Source: a virus
IMG/VR virus record: IMGVR_UViG_3300032242_002117
Location: 1-22,623 of that record
Reading direction: 5' to 3' (one strand)
Length of the DNA stretch: 22,623 nt
Shown here in pieces: positions 2,100 through 18,196 of the stretch (position 1 is the first letter of the stretch; each line of letters starts with the position of its first letter). Made by a program: the position numbers and the translations under genes. The notes beneath the pieces are model-generated. The model was not told the DNA's origin and made no database searches. It saw nothing but the letters and a program-made list of their open reading frames with translations.

Positions 2100-3424
2100 T
2101 CGTTCGAACCAACAACTCAAACCGCGAGCTACGCGACCTGTTTTCAGGATCTGACCGCATCCCGCGTCCGAGCGAAGCAGCCGGAGCGTGGGCGTACAGC
2201 GGTCGGATCGTGAACTTCGAAAGCGCGTCAGGACTGCCCGCGGTTATGGCTGCTATTCGATTGATCGCGGACACTGCAGCCAGTTTGCCGCTGTGCGTTT
2301 ACACACCAGCAGCGGACGGTTCACTGGTACGCGCGGATCAACTGCCGGTCGCGAACATTCTCGCGCGCGAACCAAACGAACAGCAGTCCGCATTTCAGGT
2401 CTGGAGTTTCGTTTTTTCATCGATGCTCGGCTGGGGCGGCGCGTACCTGTTGAAAGCCAAATCACAAGGTCGAGTCGTCGCTCTCTATCCGATCGATCCG
2501 TCGCGCGTAACGCCGCGCGTCGAAAATGGCGAACTTGTTTTCTACGTTCGAAACGTCACAAATCCCGGCGACCAATCATCGCGTCCACTGACCGGCGACG
2601 GACAAAAGAAACTTACGTCAAGCGACGTCCTATACGTTCCCGGTCAACTGTTGAACGATCCGTTTATCGGCGTGACACCGATCGCGATTCACAGGCACGC
2701 AATCGGAAACGCTCTTGCACAGCAAGAGTTTGCCGGTCGCTATTACTCAAACGACGGCAGTCCCGGCGGAATCATCAGCGTTCCGTCACAGCTCACGAAG
2801 GAAAAGCGCGAAGAGCTACGCGAAGCGTTCGAAGCTCGACACCGCGGCACGACTGCAGCACATCGCGTCGGCGTGCTGACCGGTGGCGCAACTTATGACA
2901 CAGTCCCGATCAACCTGCGCGACGCAGCGTTCATCGAATCGATGCACGCACACGCACAAGACGTCGCCAGAATGTTCGGCATTCCTGCAGGAATGCTTGA
3001 CGCTGCAGACTTCAACCATGCGTCGACGCCGGAACAGGACATGATTCGTTTTCGACTGCGACTCATCCCGTGGCTGCGCAGAGTCGAAAGCGCACTCGAA
3101 ACTGACACGGACCTATTTCCCGACGTTGACGTTCCCGGAATGCCCGACGCAGATCCAGTCGTCCGGTTCGATCCGAACGAACTGGTCCGCGCCGATCTCG
3201 AAAAGCGTTTCAGTGCGTACACGTCCGCTCGACAGGGCGGCTGGATGTCAGCAAACGAAATCCGAGCGCAGGAAAACCTTCCACCAGTGGACGGCGGCGA
3301 TCATATTCAAGTGACGCCGGTCGGTGGCGCACCGAATCCCACTGGAGCAGCCAGCACAAACCTAGACGTCATCGACGAATCAGACAACACGCTCGACGCC
3401 ACGGACGTCGCAGGCACCTACTAG
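2096..3424 (+). CDS. Portal protein (HK97-type)
   Basis: This 442-aa protein should form the ring at the special capsid vertex through which DNA enters and leaves. It has the layout of the HK97-like portal family: an N-terminal wing beginning with ASGLPAVMAAIRLIADTAASL, a central region with FVFSSMLGWGGAYLL and an IDPSRVTP strand, and the C-terminal clip/crown. The IPAGMLD...STPEQDMIRFRLRLIPWLRRVESAL segment is typical of the stem and clip helices. It starts with GTG overlapping the previous stop by 4 nt and ends 2 nt before the protease gene. Length, motifs and gene order (terminase, portal, protease, capsid) all agree. Confidence 0.95.
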   Translation: MIVRTNNSNRELRDLFSGSDRIPRPSEAAGAWAYSGRIVNFESASGLPAVMAAIRLIADTAASLPLCVYTPAADGSLVRADQLPVANILAREPNEQQSAFQVWSFVFSSMLGWGGAYLLKAKSQGRVVALYPIDPSRVTPRVENGELVFYVRNVTNPGDQSSRPLTGDGQKKLTSSDVLYVPGQLLNDPFIGVTPIAIHRHAIGNALAQQEFAGRYYSNDGSPGGIISVPSQLTKEKREELREAFEARHRGTTAAHRVGVLTGGATYDTVPINLRDAAFIESMHAHAQDVARMFGIPAGMLDAADFNHASTPEQDMIRFRLRLIPWLRRVESALETDTDLFPDVDVPGMPDADPVVRFDPNELVRADLEKRFSAYTSARQGGWMSANEIRAQENLPPVDGGDHIQVTPVGGAPNPTGAASTNLDVIDESDNTLDATDVAGTY

Positions 3425-3426
3425 AC

Positions 3427-4722
3427 ATGACGTCTTCAAATGTAAAAAGTTACGACGCGCCAGCATTGATTGTGTTGATCGGCGCGCCGGGAGCAGGAAA
3501 AACCACTTGGTTACGTGAACATCTTTCATCAGCGCAGCGCGTTGATCTAGAAATCCTGCGACGCGAACCGACAACCGATCCGGTTCAAACCGTAAAAACT
3601 GCAATAGAGGAAACTTGCAAGCATTTGCGCGCCGGACGTCTTGTCGGATTTGATTCGACGGCAATCAATCCCGCGATGCGAGAGCGTTTGCGCACCGCAG
3701 CCGAAGCGAACGGCGTTCCAGTTCACGCAATCATTTTCAATCCACCACTGGAACTGTTACTCGATGCACAAATGGAACGCGAACACCCGGTACCCGGCGA
3801 GCGCGTGAAGCAGTTGCACTCGCAATTGCAAGATCAGCTCGAAACAATTTACGCCGAATCTTGGGCATCGATTCGCACTGTTACGCGCACCGGCAAGCGA
3901 TCTAATCATTTTCCACAACCGACACGAGAGCGAAAAATGCTTGAATCACGCAGGACCGTAATCAACGAACGCGAGCTGCTGTGCGCGGACTTGACCAGTA
4001 TCGAGATCCGCGACAGCGGAAACAGCGACTACTTCACGGTCGCCGGACACGCCGCGATTTTCGGAGACGTCGCCGACCTCGGCGCATTTCGCGAAAAGCT
4101 CATGCCGGGATCATTCCGCTCAGCAATCGACACAAGCCTCGTGCATCTGCTTTGGAATCACGACGCAAACTTCCCGCTCGCCAGCACGGACAGCGGAACA
4201 CTCGACCTCGCCGAAGACGACCTCGGACTGCGCGTCTGGGCGCGCGTCCCGAAAGCACTGTCCTACGCTCCCGACCTGCGCACACTCATGGAAACCGGCA
4301 TCGCTCGCGGAATGAGTTTTGCTTTTACGCTGCCGACCGACGGCAGTGGCGAAACATGGTCACGATCCGACATTGAAGGCGACGCGCCACTGCGCACGAT
4401 TACGCGCGTGGAAGCTCTCTACGACGTGAGCTGCGTCACGCGCGGCGCGTACAGCGCACCTAGCTTCGCGATGCGCTCCGCTCTCGATTCAGCAATCGAG
4501 CGCGGCGATCTTCAGTCCACAGACTTTTCATCCGATGTCGCGCAGGCCGATCCTGCGGGCATCACCGACCATGTCGCGCAGGCCGATCCTGCGGGCGAAG
4601 GTGACGTCGCCATCACTAGTGATGGGGCATCGCAACTGCGGGCAAGTCAGCTCGCCGCACTGCAAACGACCGCAGCGATTCGTCGCCGCGTCGCCACAGC
4701 GCGTTTACAGACCAATCGCTGA
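3427..4722 (+). CDS. P-loop kinase-like domain fused to HK97 prohead protease
   Basis: This 431-aa protein has two parts. Residues 1 to about 155 resemble the polynucleotide-kinase/AAA_33 group: Walker A at 19-27 (GAPGAGKTT), an FDST segment (D76) like the acidic motif of that group, then RERLRTAAEANGVPVHAIIFN. Residues about 170-370 are a capsid maturation protease (peptidase U35): LLWNHD with H245 as candidate catalytic His, and RGMSFAF with S297 as candidate nucleophile. The protease would trim the capsid protein's N-terminal scaffold domain. The tail is low-complexity and contains an exact duplication. An in-frame ATG at 3937 (M171) with GAGAG at 3926-3930 could give a separate 261-aa protease. 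The kinase substrate is unknown. The fusion is seen directly; its benefit is inference. Confidence 0.9.
   Translation: MTSSNVKSYDAPALIVLIGAPGAGKTTWLREHLSSAQRVDLEILRREPTTDPVQTVKTAIEETCKHLRAGRLVGFDSTAINPAMRERLRTAAEANGVPVHAIIFNPPLELLLDAQMEREHPVPGERVKQLHSQLQDQLETIYAESWASIRTVTRTGKRSNHFPQPTRERKMLESRRTVINERELLCADLTSIEIRDSGNSDYFTVAGHAAIFGDVADLGAFREKLMPGSFRSAIDTSLVHLLWNHDANFPLASTDSGTLDLAEDDLGLRVWARVPKALSYAPDLRTLMETGIARGMSFAFTLPTDGSGETWSRSDIEGDAPLRTITRVEALYDVSCVTRGAYSAPSFAMRSALDSAIERGDLQSTDFSSDVAQADPAGITDHVAQADPAGEGDVAITSDGASQLRASQLAALQTTAAIRRRVATARLQTNR
3926..3939 (+). promoter_or_regulatory. Possible internal translation start for the stand-alone protease
   Basis: GAGAG at 3926-3930 lies 6 nt before in-frame ATG 3937-3939, exactly at the junction between the kinase-like and protease domains. 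The predicted short product is 261 aa, which is complete for a prohead protease. The ribosome-site match is partial, so this is a candidate only. Confidence 0.35.
4535..4596 (+). repeat. Two exact 26-bp direct repeats in the protease gene
   Basis: Copies at 4535-4560 and 4571-4596 are identical and spaced 36 bp start to start, keeping the reading frame. Each encodes VAQADPAG, in the low-complexity tail after the protease domain. This looks like a recent in-frame tandem duplication, possibly of a linker or a cleavage or interaction motif. Confidence 0.9.
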
Positions 4723-4769: not shown

Positions 4770-6356
4770 ATGCCAGACGTTCATTCGCTCGAAGCGTCCG
4801 TTCGTGACGCATTTGACGCGCTCGAAGAGGCAAACGACGCGATTCAGTCCGCTGATTCCGCCGACGATTCAGTCGACGTAGAGGCACTGGAAGCAGCATT
4901 CGCCGACGCCGAGCGCAACCACCAGTCCGCAATCGAGAAGCTGGAGCGCGCACGTCGCGTCGAAGAGGCTCGATCAGCACTTCCAGTCGCTCCCGCCGAG
5001 GATGACGTCGCAGACGTTCCGGCAAAGCGCGCGTCAGTCAGCGTCGGAAATGAGCCGCTCGTCTACCGCAGCGTCAACGAAGGCGGTACGACATCGTTTT
5101 TCGCTGACGTGTACGCCAGCAGAAAGGGCGACCCGGCAGCAGCCGAGCGTCTCGACCGCCATTCGCGTCAGGCAGCCGAGCTGCGCGTCAACCCGAACAG
5201 CACCGACGGTACCGGTGGAGATTTCGTCTTCCCTGTGTATCTGATGGCTCAGTGGCTGAAGCTCGCTCGCGCCGGTCGTCCGTTCGCGAACGCCGTCAAC
5301 CAGCAGCAGCTCCCGCTCGGAACTGACTCAATCAACCTGCCCGGTATTTCAGCCGGTGCCACGGTTGCGAAGCAGACCGATGGAGCATCTGTCAGCTCGA
5401 CCGACATCACGACCAAGACCGTTACCATTCCGGTCAACACTGCTGCCGGTCAGCAGGATTTCTCGCGCCAGCTTTTCGATCGTACGATCGCCGCTGGAAT
5501 GGGAATCGATCAGGTCATCTTCGACGATCTGGCGCGCGCATACGCGACCACGATCGACGCAGCTTGCTTGGCCGGTACCGGCACAAACGAGGCGACTGGC
5601 ATTCTGAATACGTCCGGTCTACTCACGTCGACCTACACTGCAGGTACGCCGACTCTTGGCGGACTGTACGCAAAGATCGCCGATGCGATTCAGCAGATCC
5701 ACGCGACGCGATTCCTCCCACCGACCGCGATTGTGATGCACCCACGGCGCTGGGCGTTTGCTCTGTCAGCGCTCGACGGTTCAAACCGTCCGCTCATCGT
5801 GCCGCAGGCCGGTGGAAATCAGTCCATCAACGCTGAAGGCGCGCTCTCGCAGGTCGCGTCCGAAAACATTGTCGGATCGATTCAAGGACTGCCAGTCATT
5901 GTCGACTCGTCAATCCCGACCAACAACTACGGAACGAACCTGCAGGCAGTGACGACCACAAGTGCAAGCTCCAGCAGCTCGACGACTCTTGCAGTCACGA
6001 GCGGAACCGGCATCGTCAACGGCATGACCGCAGTTGGAACCGGCATCCCTGCCGGAACCACTGTCTCATCCGGTGGCGGAACCACGTCGCTTACGCTCAG
6101 CGCAAGCGCAACCGTCGCAAGCGGCGCGACCGTCACGTTCGGCGGCGGACAGGACACGGTCCTCGTTACTCGCTTGGAGGATCTGTACCTGTACGAAGAC
6201 GGCGCACCTCGTCTGCGCATCTTCGAAGAGACGCTGTCCGGTACTCTCCAGATCCGCGCTCAGGTCTACGGCTACTACGGTTTCACCGCCGCGCGCTACG
6301 CCGCAGCATCAGCCAAGATCAACGGAACCGGTCTAGCGGCTCCGACGTTCACCTGA
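4770..6356 (+). CDS. Major capsid protein (HK97 fold) with N-terminal scaffold domain and inserted module
   Basis: This 528-aa protein builds the icosahedral head. Residues 1 to about 100 are acidic and helical (ALEEANDAIQ..., AIEKLERARRVEEA), fitting a delta-type scaffold domain removed by the upstream protease; no separate scaffold gene is present. The HK97-fold core follows, with GGDFVFPVYLM, AQQDFSRQLFDR-type and TAIVMHPRRWAF segments, and ends with LYLYEDGAPRLRIFEE...QVYGYYGFTAARY. Between IPTNNYG and the QDTVLV strand an extra stretch (about 393-460) interrupts the core. It is a Ser/Thr/Gly-rich beta module nearly matching one in the major tail protein. AGAGG 9 nt before the ATG supports the start. 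Function is secure; the insert's role is inferred as surface display. Confidence 0.96.
   Translation: MPDVHSLEASVRDAFDALEEANDAIQSADSADDSVDVEALEAAFADAERNHQSAIEKLERARRVEEARSALPVAPAEDDVADVPAKRASVSVGNEPLVYRSVNEGGTTSFFADVYASRKGDPAAAERLDRHSRQAAELRVNPNSTDGTGGDFVFPVYLMAQWLKLARAGRPFANAVNQQQLPLGTDSINLPGISAGATVAKQTDGASVSSTDITTKTVTIPVNTAAGQQDFSRQLFDRTIAAGMGIDQVIFDDLARAYATTIDAACLAGTGTNEATGILNTSGLLTSTYTAGTPTLGGLYAKIADAIQQIHATRFLPPTAIVMHPRRWAFALSALDGSNRPLIVPQAGGNQSINAEGALSQVASENIVGSIQGLPVIVDSSIPTNNYGTNLQAVTTTSASSSSSTTLAVTSGTGIVNGMTAVGTGIPAGTTVSSGGGTTSLTLSASATVASGATVTFGGGQDTVLVTRLEDLYLYEDGAPRLRIFEETLSGTLQIRAQVYGYYGFTAARYAAASAKINGTGLAAPTFT
5982..6149 (+). repeat. Shared beta-rich module, capsid copy (residues 405-460)
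   Basis: This 56-residue stretch aligns without gaps to residues 124-179 of the major tail protein, with 37 of 56 identities by hand count. Shared landmarks are TSGTG, a GTG-I/V-P turn, SGGGTTSLTLS and VASGAT. It is preceded by a Ser/Thr-rich linker in both proteins. The pattern resembles a repeat type common in phage structural proteins; its fold is not established here. Confidence 0.85.
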
Positions 6357-8827: not shown

Positions 8828-10129
8828 ATGGCTACCGGCTACCTGCAGGGCAAGTACGAACAGACCGGCGCGTCGAACTACACGCCGAATCCCGGTTCTG
8901 AAAACACGACGCCGACTCTCAGCGGGAAAGTCATGTATTTCCCGTTGCAGTCCGCTACACCAAATCTCAACTCGAACCCGCTGGAGCGCGACGACGAACT
9001 GCGCAACTACGACCAGCCGATCCTTCGAGTGACCGACACGTTCGATCCGACATGGGATTACACCAGTCGCGCCTACCCGGATCTGCTCGGCTGGCATCTT
9101 GCGCAACTGCTTGGACGTGACACGACCAGCGGTTACGCAGTAACGGCGGGAGCTGCGGCAGCGGCAACCACCACGACGACCGCTGCATCGACCACGACCA
9201 CTGTTGCGATCACCAGCGGCACCGGCACAGCGAACGGTCAATACGTGACCGGCACCGGCGTCCCGGCTAATACGACCATCGCGAGCGGCGGCGGCACTAC
9301 TTCGCTGACGCTCAGTCAGGCAGTCAACGTCGCAAGCGGTGCGACGCTTTCATTCGGTGGCGCAGTCGACATCAGTGGTACTTCACTTCTGCTGTCGGGA
9401 CAGTACGCGCACACGTGGACTGCACCATTCGGACCGGCTGGCGGCGTCCCGCAAACGTCGCAGATGATTTTCGCATATCGCGACCAGTCGACGTTTTATC
9501 AAATGAACGGCTGTGCGACAGAGCAGCTCGAACTCGACACTCCCGACAGTGGCGGTGTTGCATTGAAGGCACAGGGACCAAGCCTGTATCTCAACTCGAT
9601 CACTGATCCGTCGCAGACTCCAGCGTACGAAACGGTCGCTCGACGTCCGTTCGTTCACGGCTCGCTTGCAGTTACCTATGCGGACACAGGCAGCGGTTAC
9701 ACGACCGCGAACGCTGGCGTCGCCGCCGGTTTCACTGTTCAGGCTCGCCAGCCAGTGAACGCGATCAGGACACTCGGTGCGAGTTCGCAGTACCCGGACC
9801 GCATGGAAAAGGACGATATGCCGGTGATGTTCAGCGGCACGATCGCAAAGCGAAACCTCACGAAAGCCGATTGGGACGCAATGAAGGCACTGTCGACGTT
9901 CAAGCTGACCGCGTCATGGGTTTCAACGGATTACCTGTCCGGCACCAGTGGTTCGCGCTACGGCTGCTCGATGACGTTTCCGAACGCGCAGCTCGTCGGT
10001 GGTTCGATCGATCCGCTCGACAACAAGCGCAGGCACGGCGCGAGCTACAACTGGAACGCCGTCTACGACGGAACCAGCGCAAGCGTGGTCGTGCGACTGG
10101 TCAACACGACCACGACCTACGCAGTCTGA
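8828..10129 (+). CDS. Major tail protein with inserted module
   Basis: This 433-aa protein should polymerise into the tail tube. The core shows a tube-protein style N-terminus (MATGYLQGKYEQTGASNYTP), and later segments such as QYAHTWTAPFG, TSQMIFAYRDQSTFYQMNGCATEQLEL and RLVNTTTTYAV. These fit the larger major tail proteins of actinobacterial siphoviruses that carry antigen-like additions. Residues about 105-178 form a Thr/Gly-rich insert closely related to that in the capsid protein. AGGG at 8817-8820 precedes the ATG. Location just before frameshifted chaperones and the tape measure is diagnostic. The insert probably points outward from the tube; that is inference. Confidence 0.9.
   Translation: MATGYLQGKYEQTGASNYTPNPGSENTTPTLSGKVMYFPLQSATPNLNSNPLERDDELRNYDQPILRVTDTFDPTWDYTSRAYPDLLGWHLAQLLGRDTTSGYAVTAGAAAAATTTTTAASTTTTVAITSGTGTANGQYVTGTGVPANTTIASGGGTTSLTLSQAVNVASGATLSFGGAVDISGTSLLLSGQYAHTWTAPFGPAGGVPQTSQMIFAYRDQSTFYQMNGCATEQLELDTPDSGGVALKAQGPSLYLNSITDPSQTPAYETVARRPFVHGSLAVTYADTGSGYTTANAGVAAGFTVQARQPVNAIRTLGASSQYPDRMEKDDMPVMFSGTIAKRNLTKADWDAMKALSTFKLTASWVSTDYLSGTSGSRYGCSMTFPNAQLVGGSIDPLDNKRRHGASYNWNAVYDGTSASVVVRLVNTTTTYAV
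9197..9364 (+). repeat. Shared beta-rich module, tail copy (residues 124-179)
   Basis: This is the counterpart of the capsid module at 5982-6149, aligned over 56 residues without gaps. It is preceded by a poly-Ala/Thr linker (about residues 107-123). DNA similarity is visible too, for example around the segment encoding GGGTTSLTLS, so the copies probably share an ancestor rather than having converged. Confidence 0.85.
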
Positions 10130-12908: not shown

Positions 12909-15458
12909 GTGCAGCTTACGATCACTACGTATGCGGTCACGCCGTCGACGTTGACTCTCGCCGATGGCACGTCGAGCAATCCGTTCGCGCTGGTTTCCGA
13001 TTCGCTTGATTGGGGAAACAGTCAGTTTCAGCACGCATACAGTGGACCGCGCGGAACGCAAGGTGCGCGCGCAGCCAGTGGCATCCCACAGAACCGAACG
13101 GTCACACTGCCGATTCGTGTCTACGGTCAACCCGCCGGATCAACCACTGCGAAAGACTCGCTCGCCGCGAACATCAGAACTCTGAACTCAGTGACCGAAG
13201 ACCTTCGCAAGTTTGGCGGGAAACTGACGTGGCAGTCTGTTGGACAATCGTATAAGCAGTCGCTCGAAGTCATCACGACCGATGGTGCGCAACTGCAGAC
13301 GTGGACGAACCGCACCGAGACACGCAGCATCGCTGCAGTGAACTTGCAGCTAGTTTGCGCACCGCACGCCATTGGCGATTCAATGGACGTAAGCGACCAG
13401 ACGTTTTCGACGTACACGACTGACTATTCGCTCGATGCTGGAGCGTTTGCGAACTTGTCAAACACTGGCGGCAAGATCACAGCGACCGCAAACCAGACAG
13501 TCGAGCATCGACTGATTCACACGCAGCGTGGCTATCAGCTCGCAGATACTGAAGTCACGGTGAAAGCCGCTGTCGGCTCGACGCTCTCATCATGGAAAGC
13601 TGGAGCGATCCTGTGGCGCACCAGCGCAACCGACTACGTCACTGTCTACGTTGACGACAACGGCACGAACAGTCGACTGCGCATCGACCAAAGCATTTCC
13701 GGAACAGTCACGAATCGCTCCAGCGTAAACCTTGCGTCCAGATTGACAGCGGGCAGTCCCGGTTCGACCGTGTACGTTCGCGCACGCAGCGAAGGGACAA
13801 CCGTCTACGCCGAATACTGGACGTCCGCGCCGACACCGTCCGGCACACCGACACTGTCGACGTCGTGGGCGGCGTCGAGCGCATGGACCGCGACGACGTT
13901 CACGCAGGGCGCGATCGTCACGTATCAGGGCTACCAATACGTCGCAGCGAGCGCAACGCTAGCGACGGACGTTCCAAGCGGGGCTGCAACATCGACAGCA
14001 AAATGGAGCTACCTTGCCGGTCTGACCGGCATCACGTTTACTCCGCAAACCGCCGTCGCTGAAATCGACTATTTCATCGTTCGACCGTTCACGTACACGA
14101 ACGGACAACTCCCACGAAAAATCTCACTTCAGGGCATCATTCCCGGCGACAGTCCCGCACTAGGAAACCTTGAAATCACGACGTCACAGGACGCATCGTG
14201 GGCGATGGTTGGCTGGTCATCGAAGAGCGCTCCAACATCACTAGTCAGCACGCCGACACCGGCTGCGCCATTTCAGATCCTCAACGGAGACGCAAGCGAC
14301 AGCACAACCCGCAGCGGCTGGACAACGACCAACGCGCTCGGACTGCTCTGGAATAACTCGGCTTTTAGCAGCGCGACCACGTATTCAGCCAAATGGATTC
14401 TCGATCCGTCACTGCTTCCGATTGACGAATACACAACCGGTGATCGCGCCGTCGAAGTGTGGGCGCTCATCTTGACGGACCTGTCTTCGCGACTCGTCTC
14501 ACCAAACATCGTCGCAAGCCTGCAGAGCAAAGACGGTTACGGGCCGACGCGCTATACGGACGAATATGGAACTGCTGGGCGAACAGTGCCGGTCATGTCC
14601 AGCACTGCAACGGGCAGCGGCTACCGCTGGACTCGGCTAGGAACACTTCACGTCGGCAACACGACCGCTCGGGAAATGGCGCTCACGTTGACCGGCACTG
14701 CCGCCGCGACCTCGTCGACGTCGTCAGCGTGGGGCATCGCTCGCGTCATTGTCTTGCCGGTCAAGCAGCGCGCAACACTGCCGACCGCGAAGCACGCTGC
14801 AGAGTTCGGACCGGACTCAACGTATTCGAAATGGACACCGGCAGCGACAACGACCAGCTATTCGCTCGCGACGACGTACCCGGCTGGGCAGCTCGTCGTG
14901 TTCGGCACGTCGAGCAGCTATAGCGCAAGCGTTGCAACGTACTCAGCGAGCGCGACGTACACGACCGGGACGTACATAAAAGACACGACCGGACAGTATC
15001 TTTACGTTGCCGCAACCAATACGACTGCGGGTCAAGCACCGACCGGAGCGGCAACGTCTAACGCGCAGTGGACGTATGTGCAGACACTTCCGGCGACCAC
15101 GTCCAACACTGTCTATCGCGCAAAAAACGCGATCACGACAACGTCGCAGCAATACACGCTCCCGCAAAACAACTCGACCGATTGGGAAGCGTTTCAAATG
15201 TCGCGTCAGATCGCATCGGATCTGACGACGACAAGTTGGCAACCAACAGTCGCGACCGCACCACTGCTCGATCGAAGCATTGGCGGTGTGCTGCCGGAAC
15301 TCCCACCCGGCGCACTTGACTTGATTGTCGCATTGTCTAAGGTCGTGCCGGACGATCCGGTCGCAAGCATTGCGACCGAAGACATCCTGTATCCGTACGT
15401 CGCAAGCGTCCACGTTTCTATCCGACCACGATTCGACCAGTTGCGAACCGTCGCCTAA
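12909..15458 (+). CDS. Distal tail/minor tail protein with lectin-like and chitin-binding-like modules
   Basis: This 849-aa protein starts at GTG 12909, five nt after AGGGAG. Residues 1 to about 160 fit a distal tail (Dit-like) domain (FALVSDSLDWGN..., GIPQNRTVTLPIRVYG). Residues about 170-395 look like a concanavalin/LamG-type jelly roll (WKAGAILWRTSATDYVTVYVDD, then VYAEYW and EIDYFIVRPF). Inside it lies a CBM5/12-like module at 326-369 (TQGAIVTYQGYQYVAA...AKWSYL). A related module lies at about 673-723 (YTTGTYIKDTTGQYLYVAA...AQWTYV), just after a partial copy. The final 80 residues may return to a tail-fold domain. It probably sits at the tail tip and helps bind surface sugars; the binding role is inferred. 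Confidence 0.82.
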   Translation: MQLTITTYAVTPSTLTLADGTSSNPFALVSDSLDWGNSQFQHAYSGPRGTQGARAASGIPQNRTVTLPIRVYGQPAGSTTAKDSLAANIRTLNSVTEDLRKFGGKLTWQSVGQSYKQSLEVITTDGAQLQTWTNRTETRSIAAVNLQLVCAPHAIGDSMDVSDQTFSTYTTDYSLDAGAFANLSNTGGKITATANQTVEHRLIHTQRGYQLADTEVTVKAAVGSTLSSWKAGAILWRTSATDYVTVYVDDNGTNSRLRIDQSISGTVTNRSSVNLASRLTAGSPGSTVYVRARSEGTTVYAEYWTSAPTPSGTPTLSTSWAASSAWTATTFTQGAIVTYQGYQYVAASATLATDVPSGAATSTAKWSYLAGLTGITFTPQTAVAEIDYFIVRPFTYTNGQLPRKISLQGIIPGDSPALGNLEITTSQDASWAMVGWSSKSAPTSLVSTPTPAAPFQILNGDASDSTTRSGWTTTNALGLLWNNSAFSSATTYSAKWILDPSLLPIDEYTTGDRAVEVWALILTDLSSRLVSPNIVASLQSKDGYGPTRYTDEYGTAGRTVPVMSSTATGSGYRWTRLGTLHVGNTTAREMALTLTGTAAATSSTSSAWGIARVIVLPVKQRATLPTAKHAAEFGPDSTYSKWTPAATTTSYSLATTYPAGQLVVFGTSSSYSASVATYSASATYTTGTYIKDTTGQYLYVAATNTTAGQAPTGAATSNAQWTYVQTLPATTSNTVYRAKNAITTTSQQYTLPQNNSTDWEAFQMSRQIASDLTTTSWQPTVATAPLLDRSIGGVLPELPPGALDLIVALSKVVPDDPVASIATEDILYPYVASVHVSIRPRFDQLRTVA

Positions 15459-15460
15459 CG

Positions 15461-18196
15461 ATGCGCGACGCAGTCATTCGCATACAGGCCCAAGACGGCG
15501 CGTGGGAACACATCGGCGCGGACCGCTCGACCGGCATTGTCGCCGAAAGTTTGCAGCTCTCCGCGAACGCTTACGGACCCGACACCGCAAGTTTTAGTCT
15601 GCATCGCGATCCCGGCGCTGCGTGGCCGGACCTGTCAGCGTTCACGCCAGTGGAGATCGAAGTCGCTGGGCGATTGTGTTGGACTGGTCGAATCAGTGAA
15701 ACGCAGGTTCGTGATGGCAGCGAGCGATCATTGTCGATCAACTGTGAAGGCTCGCAAGCAGTTCTAGACGACGACCAATACGCGCGCGCATACGTTCACA
15801 CAAAGATCAGCGATTGGCGCGCACTCGGTGATTACGCGACGCTCGGCCCTGCGTTCAAAGGACACGAAGGGACCGTCAACCCTAACGGCGGCAGCATCTT
15901 TATGGGATGGCCGCAGGGAAGCACGCCGCAACAGGGCGAAGCTGTCGGAATGGTGCTTGATCTGGGCGGATCAACCGTCACCGGCGGCTATTCGCTCTAC
16001 GCAAAAGTCACACGGTACCTAGAGGTCGCGCGCATGACGCTTGCGACCGGCTCGGCTGGATACTTGACATCGTTTGGCTCGACACCAACTCTCCCGATCA
16101 TTGGCAGCGGTGGCACTAGTGCTGCAGCGATACCGGTCTGGAGCGCAGCATCTGTGGCATACACGGTCGGTCAGTTCGTGCAGCGCAACGTTGCTGGTGG
16201 AAACCCGACGATCTTTCAATGTTTGCGAGCGCACACGTCAGCAGCCGGAAACAGTCCAGACCTATACGCTGATCCGTGGACTGACCGTCAAGCCTACGCC
16301 GTCAACTCGATAGTCAATCAGGGCGGCTCGATTTATCAAACGCCGGTCGGCATTTCAACGCTTGCAGATTCGCTAATCGCTCCCGGCACACCCGCCGCCG
16401 CGGGCAAATGGACAGATATCACAGCGACCGCATACTGGGCGCCAATTGTTCCGCCGATTTCCTATTTCGTGGCAAGCTCAACTAACGCAGGCGGACTGCA
16501 GACGATCGCGAACCTGTCCTACGCTTCCCTGCAGTCGTACGGAATCCCGTACGGGTCCGGATATGGCCGGTCGCCTGCGGTGCGCGACTATTTGCAATCG
16601 CACTACACCGGGTCGCCAACATCGCCAGCATTCAAGACCGCTGGTTATTTCGACACGGTGTTTACGTTTAGCGGCGCGACGCGATTCATTGTGATCGTCG
16701 CCTACATCAATCGTTACGCGCAAGCACCACTAGCAAATCAATACGGCGCGCAGTTCGAACAGATCAGCGTCTACGGCAAACCGTCGTACTCATCCAATCC
16801 GTTCGACTCAACCCTGCGAGCTGCTGGATCACCTGCACTCGCAGCACAGTTCACGTCGGCGCTCACGCCGTCAATCACAGCCGACCTCGTTATCGCCGAC
16901 GCCGTCACCAGTGGCGGCTCCGACCTCACAGCCAATACGCCAACCGCACCGACGACAGTCCTGTCTCACGTCGTCACAGACGGTCACAAAACGCCGCGCG
17001 AAATGATCGACACAGTCAACGCCTATCACGGCTGGATTACGCGCGTAAACGAAAACAAACAGCTCACGTTCAAACCACGACCAACCACGCCAATCGCGCA
17101 ACTCGACAAATCCAGCGGATATGACTTCACCGATCAAGCCTCAAGCAGCGGCGCAGACGTCTACTCGCGAATCATCGTCGACGGACAGGATTATCAGGGC
17201 GGAGCGCTGCGCGTAGTTCGCACCGCGGCGCAGCTTGCATCAGCGATCCAGATCAGTGCAGCGGGAGCCAGCACAATCACTGCAGCTCAACAGGCCGGAA
17301 TAAAAATCATCGACCGACCGTCCGGCATTGCACTAAATCCGATCAATGGTGGAATCAAAACCACGACGACCGTTCAGTCCACGCTGTTTTCCGCAAACGC
17401 CATTTTCCGAGCTGGTGTGACGTACGTGTTGACCGGGACGTTTACGTATTCGGGCGCGACCGGCGCAACGTACCCGCAGGGACTGCAGATCACGTTCGGA
17501 CGCGACGGTTACTGCGTGCCATCCGGCAGATCACTATCGACAAACACGGCGCTCACAGTTGCCGGAAATGGCACTAACTCGCCGACCGTTTATGGCAACG
17601 CGAACGGAAGCGATGTCGGACCGTTCGCGTTTCAAATCCTCTGGACGCCGGAAACCGATCAAGACTGGACGTCCGGATCTGTGTTCACGTTCTCAACGAC
17701 AAACGGAAACAGTGGAGTCGGCGGGGACACGACACCATCGATTCGCATCGGCAAGAACGATACGTCGAACGCGACTGCGGCTGATCCGTCGATTCAGATT
17801 CGCTCCAGCACACTTGCGGAGATGCGCGGCATTCGACGCAGCTACCAGCTACAGGTTCCCGGCGTGCAAACCACCGCGACGCTCGCGGCGATCGGTGACG
17901 CATGGCTGTTCGATCATTTTCGCGCACAGTTTCGCGGAACGGTTCAAATCACCGGACCAAATGCTGCTCGAACTTTTACGACCGGCGATCCGATTCATCC
18001 CTCCGCACTGCTGCTGCAGACCGGTGAGTTGCTGCAGCTCACCGATCGCATCGACCCCGACACTGGACAAGTCGGCAGAGACGCGCGCATCGCCGCCGTG
18101 CAATACGACCACGACAGCGAAACGGCAAGCGTCGAGCTGGACAATCGCAGAGACAACCTTCAAACATTTCTCAGCCGACTCCAGATCGGTCAGTAA
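15461..18196 (+). CDS. Tail hub/minor tail protein with chitin-binding-like modules
   Basis: This 911-aa protein begins 3 nt after the previous stop. Its first 110 residues (VEIEVAGRLCWTGRISETQV) and a distant block near 505-590 (VVTDGHKTPREMIDTVNAYHGWITRVNENKQLTFKPRP, then DVYSRIIVDGQ) have the style of tail-hub (gpL/Tal-like) proteins. Its C-terminus (LQLTDRIDPDTGQVGRDARIAAVQYDHDSETASVELDN) also fits. Long insertions interrupt it: two CBM5/12-like modules at 227-273 and 274-317 (VAYTVGQFVQ...PWTD and YAVNSIVNQGGSIYQ...KWTDI), and beta-rich segments near 330-450 and 625-770. It likely forms the tail tip and touches the host. No peptidase motif was recognised. Confidence 0.8.
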   Translation: MRDAVIRIQAQDGAWEHIGADRSTGIVAESLQLSANAYGPDTASFSLHRDPGAAWPDLSAFTPVEIEVAGRLCWTGRISETQVRDGSERSLSINCEGSQAVLDDDQYARAYVHTKISDWRALGDYATLGPAFKGHEGTVNPNGGSIFMGWPQGSTPQQGEAVGMVLDLGGSTVTGGYSLYAKVTRYLEVARMTLATGSAGYLTSFGSTPTLPIIGSGGTSAAAIPVWSAASVAYTVGQFVQRNVAGGNPTIFQCLRAHTSAAGNSPDLYADPWTDRQAYAVNSIVNQGGSIYQTPVGISTLADSLIAPGTPAAAGKWTDITATAYWAPIVPPISYFVASSTNAGGLQTIANLSYASLQSYGIPYGSGYGRSPAVRDYLQSHYTGSPTSPAFKTAGYFDTVFTFSGATRFIVIVAYINRYAQAPLANQYGAQFEQISVYGKPSYSSNPFDSTLRAAGSPALAAQFTSALTPSITADLVIADAVTSGGSDLTANTPTAPTTVLSHVVTDGHKTPREMIDTVNAYHGWITRVNENKQLTFKPRPTTPIAQLDKSSGYDFTDQASSSGADVYSRIIVDGQDYQGGALRVVRTAAQLASAIQISAAGASTITAAQQAGIKIIDRPSGIALNPINGGIKTTTTVQSTLFSANAIFRAGVTYVLTGTFTYSGATGATYPQGLQITFGRDGYCVPSGRSLSTNTALTVAGNGTNSPTVYGNANGSDVGPFAFQILWTPETDQDWTSGSVFTFSTTNGNSGVGGDTTPSIRIGKNDTSNATAADPSIQIRSSTLAEMRGIRRSYQLQVPGVQTTATLAAIGDAWLFDHFRAQFRGTVQITGPNAARTFTTGDPIHPSALLLQTGELLQLTDRIDPDTGQVGRDARIAAVQYDHDSETASVELDNRRDNLQTFLSRLQIGQ

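Follow-up and report, generated by a model that had tools for sequence, protein, structure and literature searches.

The locus that we describe here raises two questions: why do the capsid protein and the major tail protein of one virus share a segment of about 55 residues, and what would such a segment do on a virion? The window, that is, the stretch of 22,623 nucleotides that we analyzed, is a whole IMG/VR record (IMGVR_UViG_3300032242_002117). The genes for the two proteins, the two copies of the segment and the linkers that precede them are located in Table 1.

Table 1. Features of the window that carry or flank the two copies of the module (positions are those of the window).
Feature	Position	Strand	Remarks
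Major capsid protein (HK97 fold), host of copy 1	4770..6356	+	528 aa
Ser/Thr-rich linker AVTTTSASSSSS before the capsid module	5946..5981	+	From sequence; within the ~65 residues missing from relatives
Module copy 1, residues 405-460	5982..6149	+	A-domain loop after the GLPVI strand
Major tail (tube) protein, host of copy 2	8828..10129	+	433 aa; T5 pb6/P74-26-like fold
Thr/Ala-rich linker before the tail module	9161..9196	+	From sequence; within the 68 residues missing from L083 and L084
Module copy 2, residues 124-179	9197..9364	+	Loop after helix 84-95 and strand 103-107

Two copies of one segment in unrelated structural proteins

A preliminary description of the window, made by reading the sequence, reported that the two segments share 37 of 56 positions in a gap-free alignment; the count is correct and the residue coordinates are exact. 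The local alignment score of the two copies is 198, far above the scores of 2000 shuffles (mean 50, sd 7, maximum 78), and composition-adjusted BLASTP of copy 1 against copy 2 gives 8e-17 over 54 residues. Both copies are rich in T, S, G, and A, and neither contains a charged residue. The abundance of these four residues is the point in favor of chance, that is, of convergence between two low-complexity Ser/Thr/Gly stretches, and the preliminary description had itself named convergence by composition as one of the outcomes that would undo its claim. The controls refute this explanation, to which we give practically no weight: identity at 37 of 56 positions without a gap, a composition-corrected BLASTP value of this size and far lower scores for shuffled sequences all argue against it, as do the confident fold prediction and the structural match that are described below. 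In addition, the profile of the wider family finds no match at E<=0.001 in 2105 shuffled ORFs, so composition does not account for the similarity.

At the DNA level the two copies are identical at 110 of 168 positions (65%). The codons for the 37 identical residues are the same in 17 cases and different in 20 (11.5 identical codons are expected by chance). This level of DNA identity, together with the codon drift, indicates that the two copies are old relatives that have been maintained at the protein level; the same evidence rules out both a recent duplication of the module and an artefact of assembly.

The identities of the two host proteins are established in different ways. The capsid ORF matches Pfam Phage_capsid (PF05065, 4e-16), PHROG 2263 (major head, 7e-45) and NCBIfam TIGR01554 (3e-22), and a profile of its relatives matches HK97 gp5 in the PDB. 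The tail ORF has no convincing family match; however, its AlphaFold2 model (pTM 0.73) is matched by Foldseek to the tail tubes of T5, DT57C, P74-26, and SH-Ab15497 at about 1e-7 to 1e-9 and by VIA with Z 19-24 (Z 24.1 to P74-26 and 21.0 to T5, both over about 300 residues), so the name 'major tail protein' that the first reading had given to this ORF is correct. The tail protein and the module were predicted apart; when fragments of the module were aligned together with distant tail or capsid proteins, both came out misaligned, and within the model of the tail protein the module has a pLDDT <50 where the alignment is only two sequences deep.

Comparison with relatives of both proteins locates the segments as additions. 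In the capsid protein, the loop is ~65 residues longer than in relatives, and the site of the insertion can be aligned both to HK97 gp5 and to a second capsid family (vide infra); none of the related capsid ORFs that we recovered by BLASTP from IMG/VR loci carries the module, and the site in these, including that in the closest relative (L003), is a tight turn. In the tail protein, 68 residues are extra as compared with the loop in relatives; the segment is absent from 11 of 12 related tail proteins (those of L083 and L084 and nine that are more distant), the exception being the tail protein of L003, which contains the module at the same site. As judged from these sequences, both copies are clean insertions and not ancestral parts of their hosts, and the first reading was right in its description that each follows a Ser/Thr/Ala linker, that each interrupts a structural fold and that the two host proteins are unrelated.

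Just upstream of the capsid gene, the ORF for the head maturation protease (3427-4722) encodes a single protein in which an N-terminal P-loop domain that resembles AAA_33/polynucleotide kinase (7e-16) is combined with a prohead protease domain of the Peptidase_S78 family (6e-28).

The module family and its link to a decoration protein

We regard the segment as a putative self-folding accessory domain and call it, for the turn that is best conserved, the GTGIP module. A structural model of the module by itself, computed with 68 sequences (pLDDT 85), predicts a beta domain of ~55 residues and five strands. No model in Pfam or NCBIfam covers the module, PHROGs touch it only inside larger virion proteins and its motif letters do not occur in the literature text that we searched. 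A search of phage structural proteins for the motif, which the preliminary description had suggested, reveals a large family: a profile constructed from the two copies in the window reaches 57 IMG/VR loci, and a wider profile identifies 197 copies; the 145 ORFs that contain them fall into 59 clusters of phage proteins. A tblastn search of annotated phages with the bare module gave no matches, probably as a result of low-complexity masking by BLAST, and is not evidence of absence.

Using a profile of 68 modules (A7) and hmmsearch, we obtained a single clear match in the PDB, the decoration protein in 8ECI (E 1.6e-4). We traced chain 1 of that structure to gp7 of Arthrobacter phage Bridgette, a protein of 126 aa that is encoded directly after the capsid gene; gp7 is annotated as hypothetical in Bridgette and as a capsid decoration protein in two related phages. 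The alignment of the module profile with gp7 by hhalign has a probability of 95 (E 2e-8). The predicted fold agrees: Foldseek matches the module model to 8ECI chain 1 with a probability of 1.00, a TM score of 0.67 and 36% identity in the structural alignment, and VIA does so with Z 6.0 and rmsd 2.3 over all 59 residues, so that profile, profile–profile and fold matches cover the whole module. Because a Z of 6.0 by itself is middling for a small beta domain, the firmness of the link to Bridgette comes from the sequence profile. A further sequence link is provided by L282, which encodes a 139-aa protein that consists of a canonical module followed by a C-terminal part that resembles Bridgette gp7. 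By profile and by model, then, the module and gp7 belong to one family. They differ in context: gp7 is a free-standing protein with an extra C-terminal part that is encoded next to the capsid gene, whereas the module described here is internal to the capsid and tail-tube proteins; thus, the module shares a domain of the gp7 type and is not itself a decoration protein.

The few matches listed by Foldseek and VIA against the PDB are 8ECI, a stretch of a phage endosialidase (Z 3.5, the next best) and one match at the level of chance; so short a list does not disprove similarity to other folds. No Ig fold is among the structures listed, and the module model has five strands as compared with the seven- to nine-stranded beta-sandwich of Ig domains. 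Searches against the Ig, Big, PKD, and FN3 families gave no match (the best in Pfam, PKD_6 with E 1.1, is far under the cut-off), and further members of the module family gave no Ig match. Among predicted viral structures, the module fold is found in tail collar proteins, fibres, a P22 gp10-like protein, a baseplate initiator and another HK97 capsid protein. A further match among the predicted structures, A0A1V0SCQ2 in BFVD (TM 0.63), is a collagen-repeat protein of the giant virus Indivirus and hints at a spread beyond phages.

The conserved positions of the module are Gly, Pro, Thr and small hydrophobic residues, which are typical of turns and core. Among the 68 modules there is no conserved Trp, Tyr or charged surface position; the only well-conserved aromatic residue is a Phe in the last strand (55 of 68 rows), and Trp accounts for 0.1% of residues. 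The families of carbohydrate-binding modules gave no significant match to the module itself.

Hosts of the module and its movement among close relatives

The phage proteins in which the family search located the module include baseplate wedge, tail appendage, adaptor, nozzle, tail fibre, head–tail adaptor and collar proteins. Three kinds of major tail protein carry it, with those of L088 and L136 belonging to two other PHROGs. The capsid protein of L259 is a member of a different family (PHROG 267, 1e-56); either the module or a drifted version of it occurs in this protein and in 14 relatives, and the other relatives have a short loop in its place. Three of these 15 were found by the profile, and the other 12 were recognized by alignment to those three. 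The modules of this set (L259 and L283-L296) extend from the canonical form (GTGIP) to forms that have drifted so strongly (GTGVGA) as to be beyond the reach of the profile, a series that is useful for tracing decay. In a profile–profile alignment of the two capsid families, the insertion points coincide after a strand of the A-domain, at a probability of only 24% (E 8e-4); both loops follow the same G-x-x-[VI] strand. These alignments suggest that the two capsid families carry the module at an aligned A-domain loop, and we take them as supporting, not decisive.

Bacteria also use the module, so a view of it as a phage domain is too narrow. For the scan of bacterial genomes we used a tighter subset of modules as the profile; the alignment of the whole family was too diverse. 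The module was found in very large proteins of Verrucomicrobiota, in phage tail fibres and in a flagellar hook/rod protein. The Verrucomicrobiota proteins on genome contigs L158, L162, L175, and L181 contain 8 to 14 copies each, and autotransporter repeats were confirmed in two of the large proteins that were tested, including that of L158. The flagellar protein (L202, 3248-5134), from Spartobacteria, is of the FlgE/F/G type and contains four tandem modules between conserved ends. All of the hosts named here, viral and bacterial, are parts of virions or outward-facing proteins.

Within the group of close relatives of the window, presence of the module varies at four places, which are distributed over three proteins. 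The tail protein of L003 has a second copy near its N-terminus; L083 has no module in its capsid or tail-tube protein and two copies in a large protein that follows the tape measure, and the homologue of that protein in the window is without the module at the corresponding place; L084 has no copies. In a tree of 68 modules, the capsid and tail copies of the window and the two copies of L003 form one clade (support 99/91); the L083 copies are without clear placement. The preliminary description had called the two copies sister modules and had proposed a phylogeny of them; the four-copy clade is consistent with that relationship. The same clade, together with the second copy in the L003 tail protein and the two copies in L083, bears out its suggestion that the module had spread, here within the lineage. 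Because the copies of the lineage form one clade, recombination within the lineage is the most likely means by which the module passed from one structural gene to another. The tail protein of the window is closer in sequence to that of L084, which lacks the module, than to that of L003, which has it; similarity of the tail proteins does not track the presence of the module, so the module must have been lost or transferred at least once.

Modules in both the capsid and the tail-tube protein were found in no other record that we examined, most of which are fragments. In one phage record, L231, the module is present in a head–tail adaptor (134-1105) and in a minor tail protein (2329-3534), a second case of spread among structural genes.

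In the window, the large tail protein encoded at 15461-18196 contains a CBM5/12-like segment (PF02839, E 0.004, below the curated cut-off), and the large tail protein at 12909-15458 contains sequence that resembles this segment; the tail end may therefore carry further sugar-binding parts. In L083 (11930-14869), in the homologue of the 849-aa protein of the window, two modules seem to interrupt a CBM5/12-like segment, that is, one accessory module is nested in another.

Exposure, possible roles and meaning

We propose that the module, preceded by a flexible Ser/Thr linker, became inserted into the A-domain loop of the capsid protein and, likewise, into the loop after a helix of the tail-tube protein. 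That it would face outward, as the first reading had supposed, is well supported by inference: the homologous protein decorates capsids and the capsid loop takes an insertion in two families; the insertion in the tail protein follows a helix, as does domain 2 of the YSD1 major tail protein, a beta domain on the outer face of the tube that packs on the next subunit (PMC8718954); and the bacterial hosts are surface proteins. The likeness to YSD1 is one of position only, domain 2 being a beta domain between helix 1 and the following core strand of a tail-tube protein. The I-domain of P22, a beta-barrel of about 120 residues (PMC9965877, PMC10172136), is likewise, by description, a beta domain inserted in the A-domain of an HK97-fold capsid protein. 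If every capsid and tail-tube subunit carries one module, several hundred copies would be displayed on the outer surface of the head and tail of the virion, in accord with the high copy number that had been suggested previously. Taken as a whole, an inserted domain of the gp7 family that is exposed on both head and tail is probably the correct explanation, and we are comparably confident in its two parts, the identity of the module from its sequence and its exposure by analogy.

The closest known parallel is mycobacteriophage Douge, whose major capsid and tail-tube proteins both carry Ig-like domains (919 copies). Binding of these domains to mycobacterial glycans has been measured, and the phage adsorbs more slowly to a host without surface arabinomannan (PMC13033339). 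In both phages a single type of accessory domain would project from capsid and tail tube alike, in hundreds of copies; however, the Ig-like domain of Douge is C-terminal and binds glycans, whereas the module is a member of another family and is located in internal loops. According to a survey cited in PMC7602432, Ig-like domains of tailed phages occur in five classes of protein, namely, tail fibres and the proteins of the baseplate wedge, major tail, major head and decoration types. The family of the module is found in the same five classes, but the module has no Pfam Ig match and five strands in the model.

By analogy with such Ig-like domains, the module would most likely serve as an exposed domain of a generic kind, one that touches the host surface or the surroundings weakly and at many points; we hold this role tentatively, at somewhat below an even chance. 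A second possible role, which we consider rather unlikely, is cementing: a decoration protein captured as an internal domain would hold neighboring subunits together and make the head and tail tube stiffer. The one homologue with a solved structure is indeed a capsid decoration protein; dimeric capsid proteins of this kind are described around the Bridgette penton, where they bridge capsomeres (PMC13033339), and domain 2 of YSD1, at a comparable site in its tail protein, clasps the next subunit on the outside of the tube (PMC8718954). However, the family also occurs in tail fibres, tail collar, autotransporter-type and flagellar hook/rod proteins, where capsid cementing is impossible, close relatives assemble heads and tails that lack the module, and the long flexible linker better suits a loosely held domain; from the sequences collected, the breadth of hosts appears to fit a domain of generic weak contacts better than a cement.

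Two further explanations seem to us improbable, each to about the same degree. In one, the module would be a dedicated lectin with a specific glycan site of its own that provides weak binding and diffusion on the surface; the Ig-like domains on the capsid and tail tube of Douge are a direct precedent (PMC13033339), the module occurs in tail fibres and autotransporter-type proteins, and the other, weak structural match is to an endosialidase. The module itself, however, resembles no carbohydrate-binding family significantly, and its conserved positions offer neither an aromatic platform nor a charged site, which argues against one shared glycan pocket. The binding of host glycans or debris and the aid to diffusion that the first reading had suggested thus far lack support. 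In the other, the module would be mostly neutral padding, an easily folded and soluble unit that is tolerated in exposed loops, passed on by recombination and perhaps a putative carrier of O-glycans on Ser/Thr. Its patchy presence among close relatives, its charge-free sequence rich in Ser/Thr and its many unrelated hosts agree with padding, but the protein sequence has been kept while the codons drifted (20 of the 37 shared residues have different codons), which suggests purifying selection, and the module was inserted repeatedly at the same capsid loop in two families.

That head and tail proteins carry accessory domains is already established for Ig-like domains, in the survey as cited in PMC7602432. 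What is new is that a different, unnamed family, linked to a solved decoration protein, has such a role, that it is used at an aligned loop of two capsid families and that among close relatives it has moved into the capsid, the tail tube and another tail protein. We think it slightly more probable than the contrary that, beside the Ig-like domains, viruses and bacteria have in this beta-domain family a second surface module of general use: a free decoration protein in one setting that has been captured repeatedly as an internal domain (in two capsid families at the same A-domain loop, in several tail-tube families and in a flagellar hook/rod protein) and that here would be present on both the head and the tail of a single virion. 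The analysis identifies a large family of surface domains of virions that had not been catalogued and of which one member has a solved structure, and the window and its close relatives provide a natural example in which a domain of the decoration type moves between genes of the head and genes of the tail. Two ideas become testable, namely, that decoration domains turn from separate proteins into built-in domains of capsid proteins and that accessory folds of unrelated origin, when carried on capsid and tail tube, arrive by convergence at the role of the Ig-like domains. The A-domain loop, which accepts the module in two capsid families, would be a naturally tolerated site for insertion.
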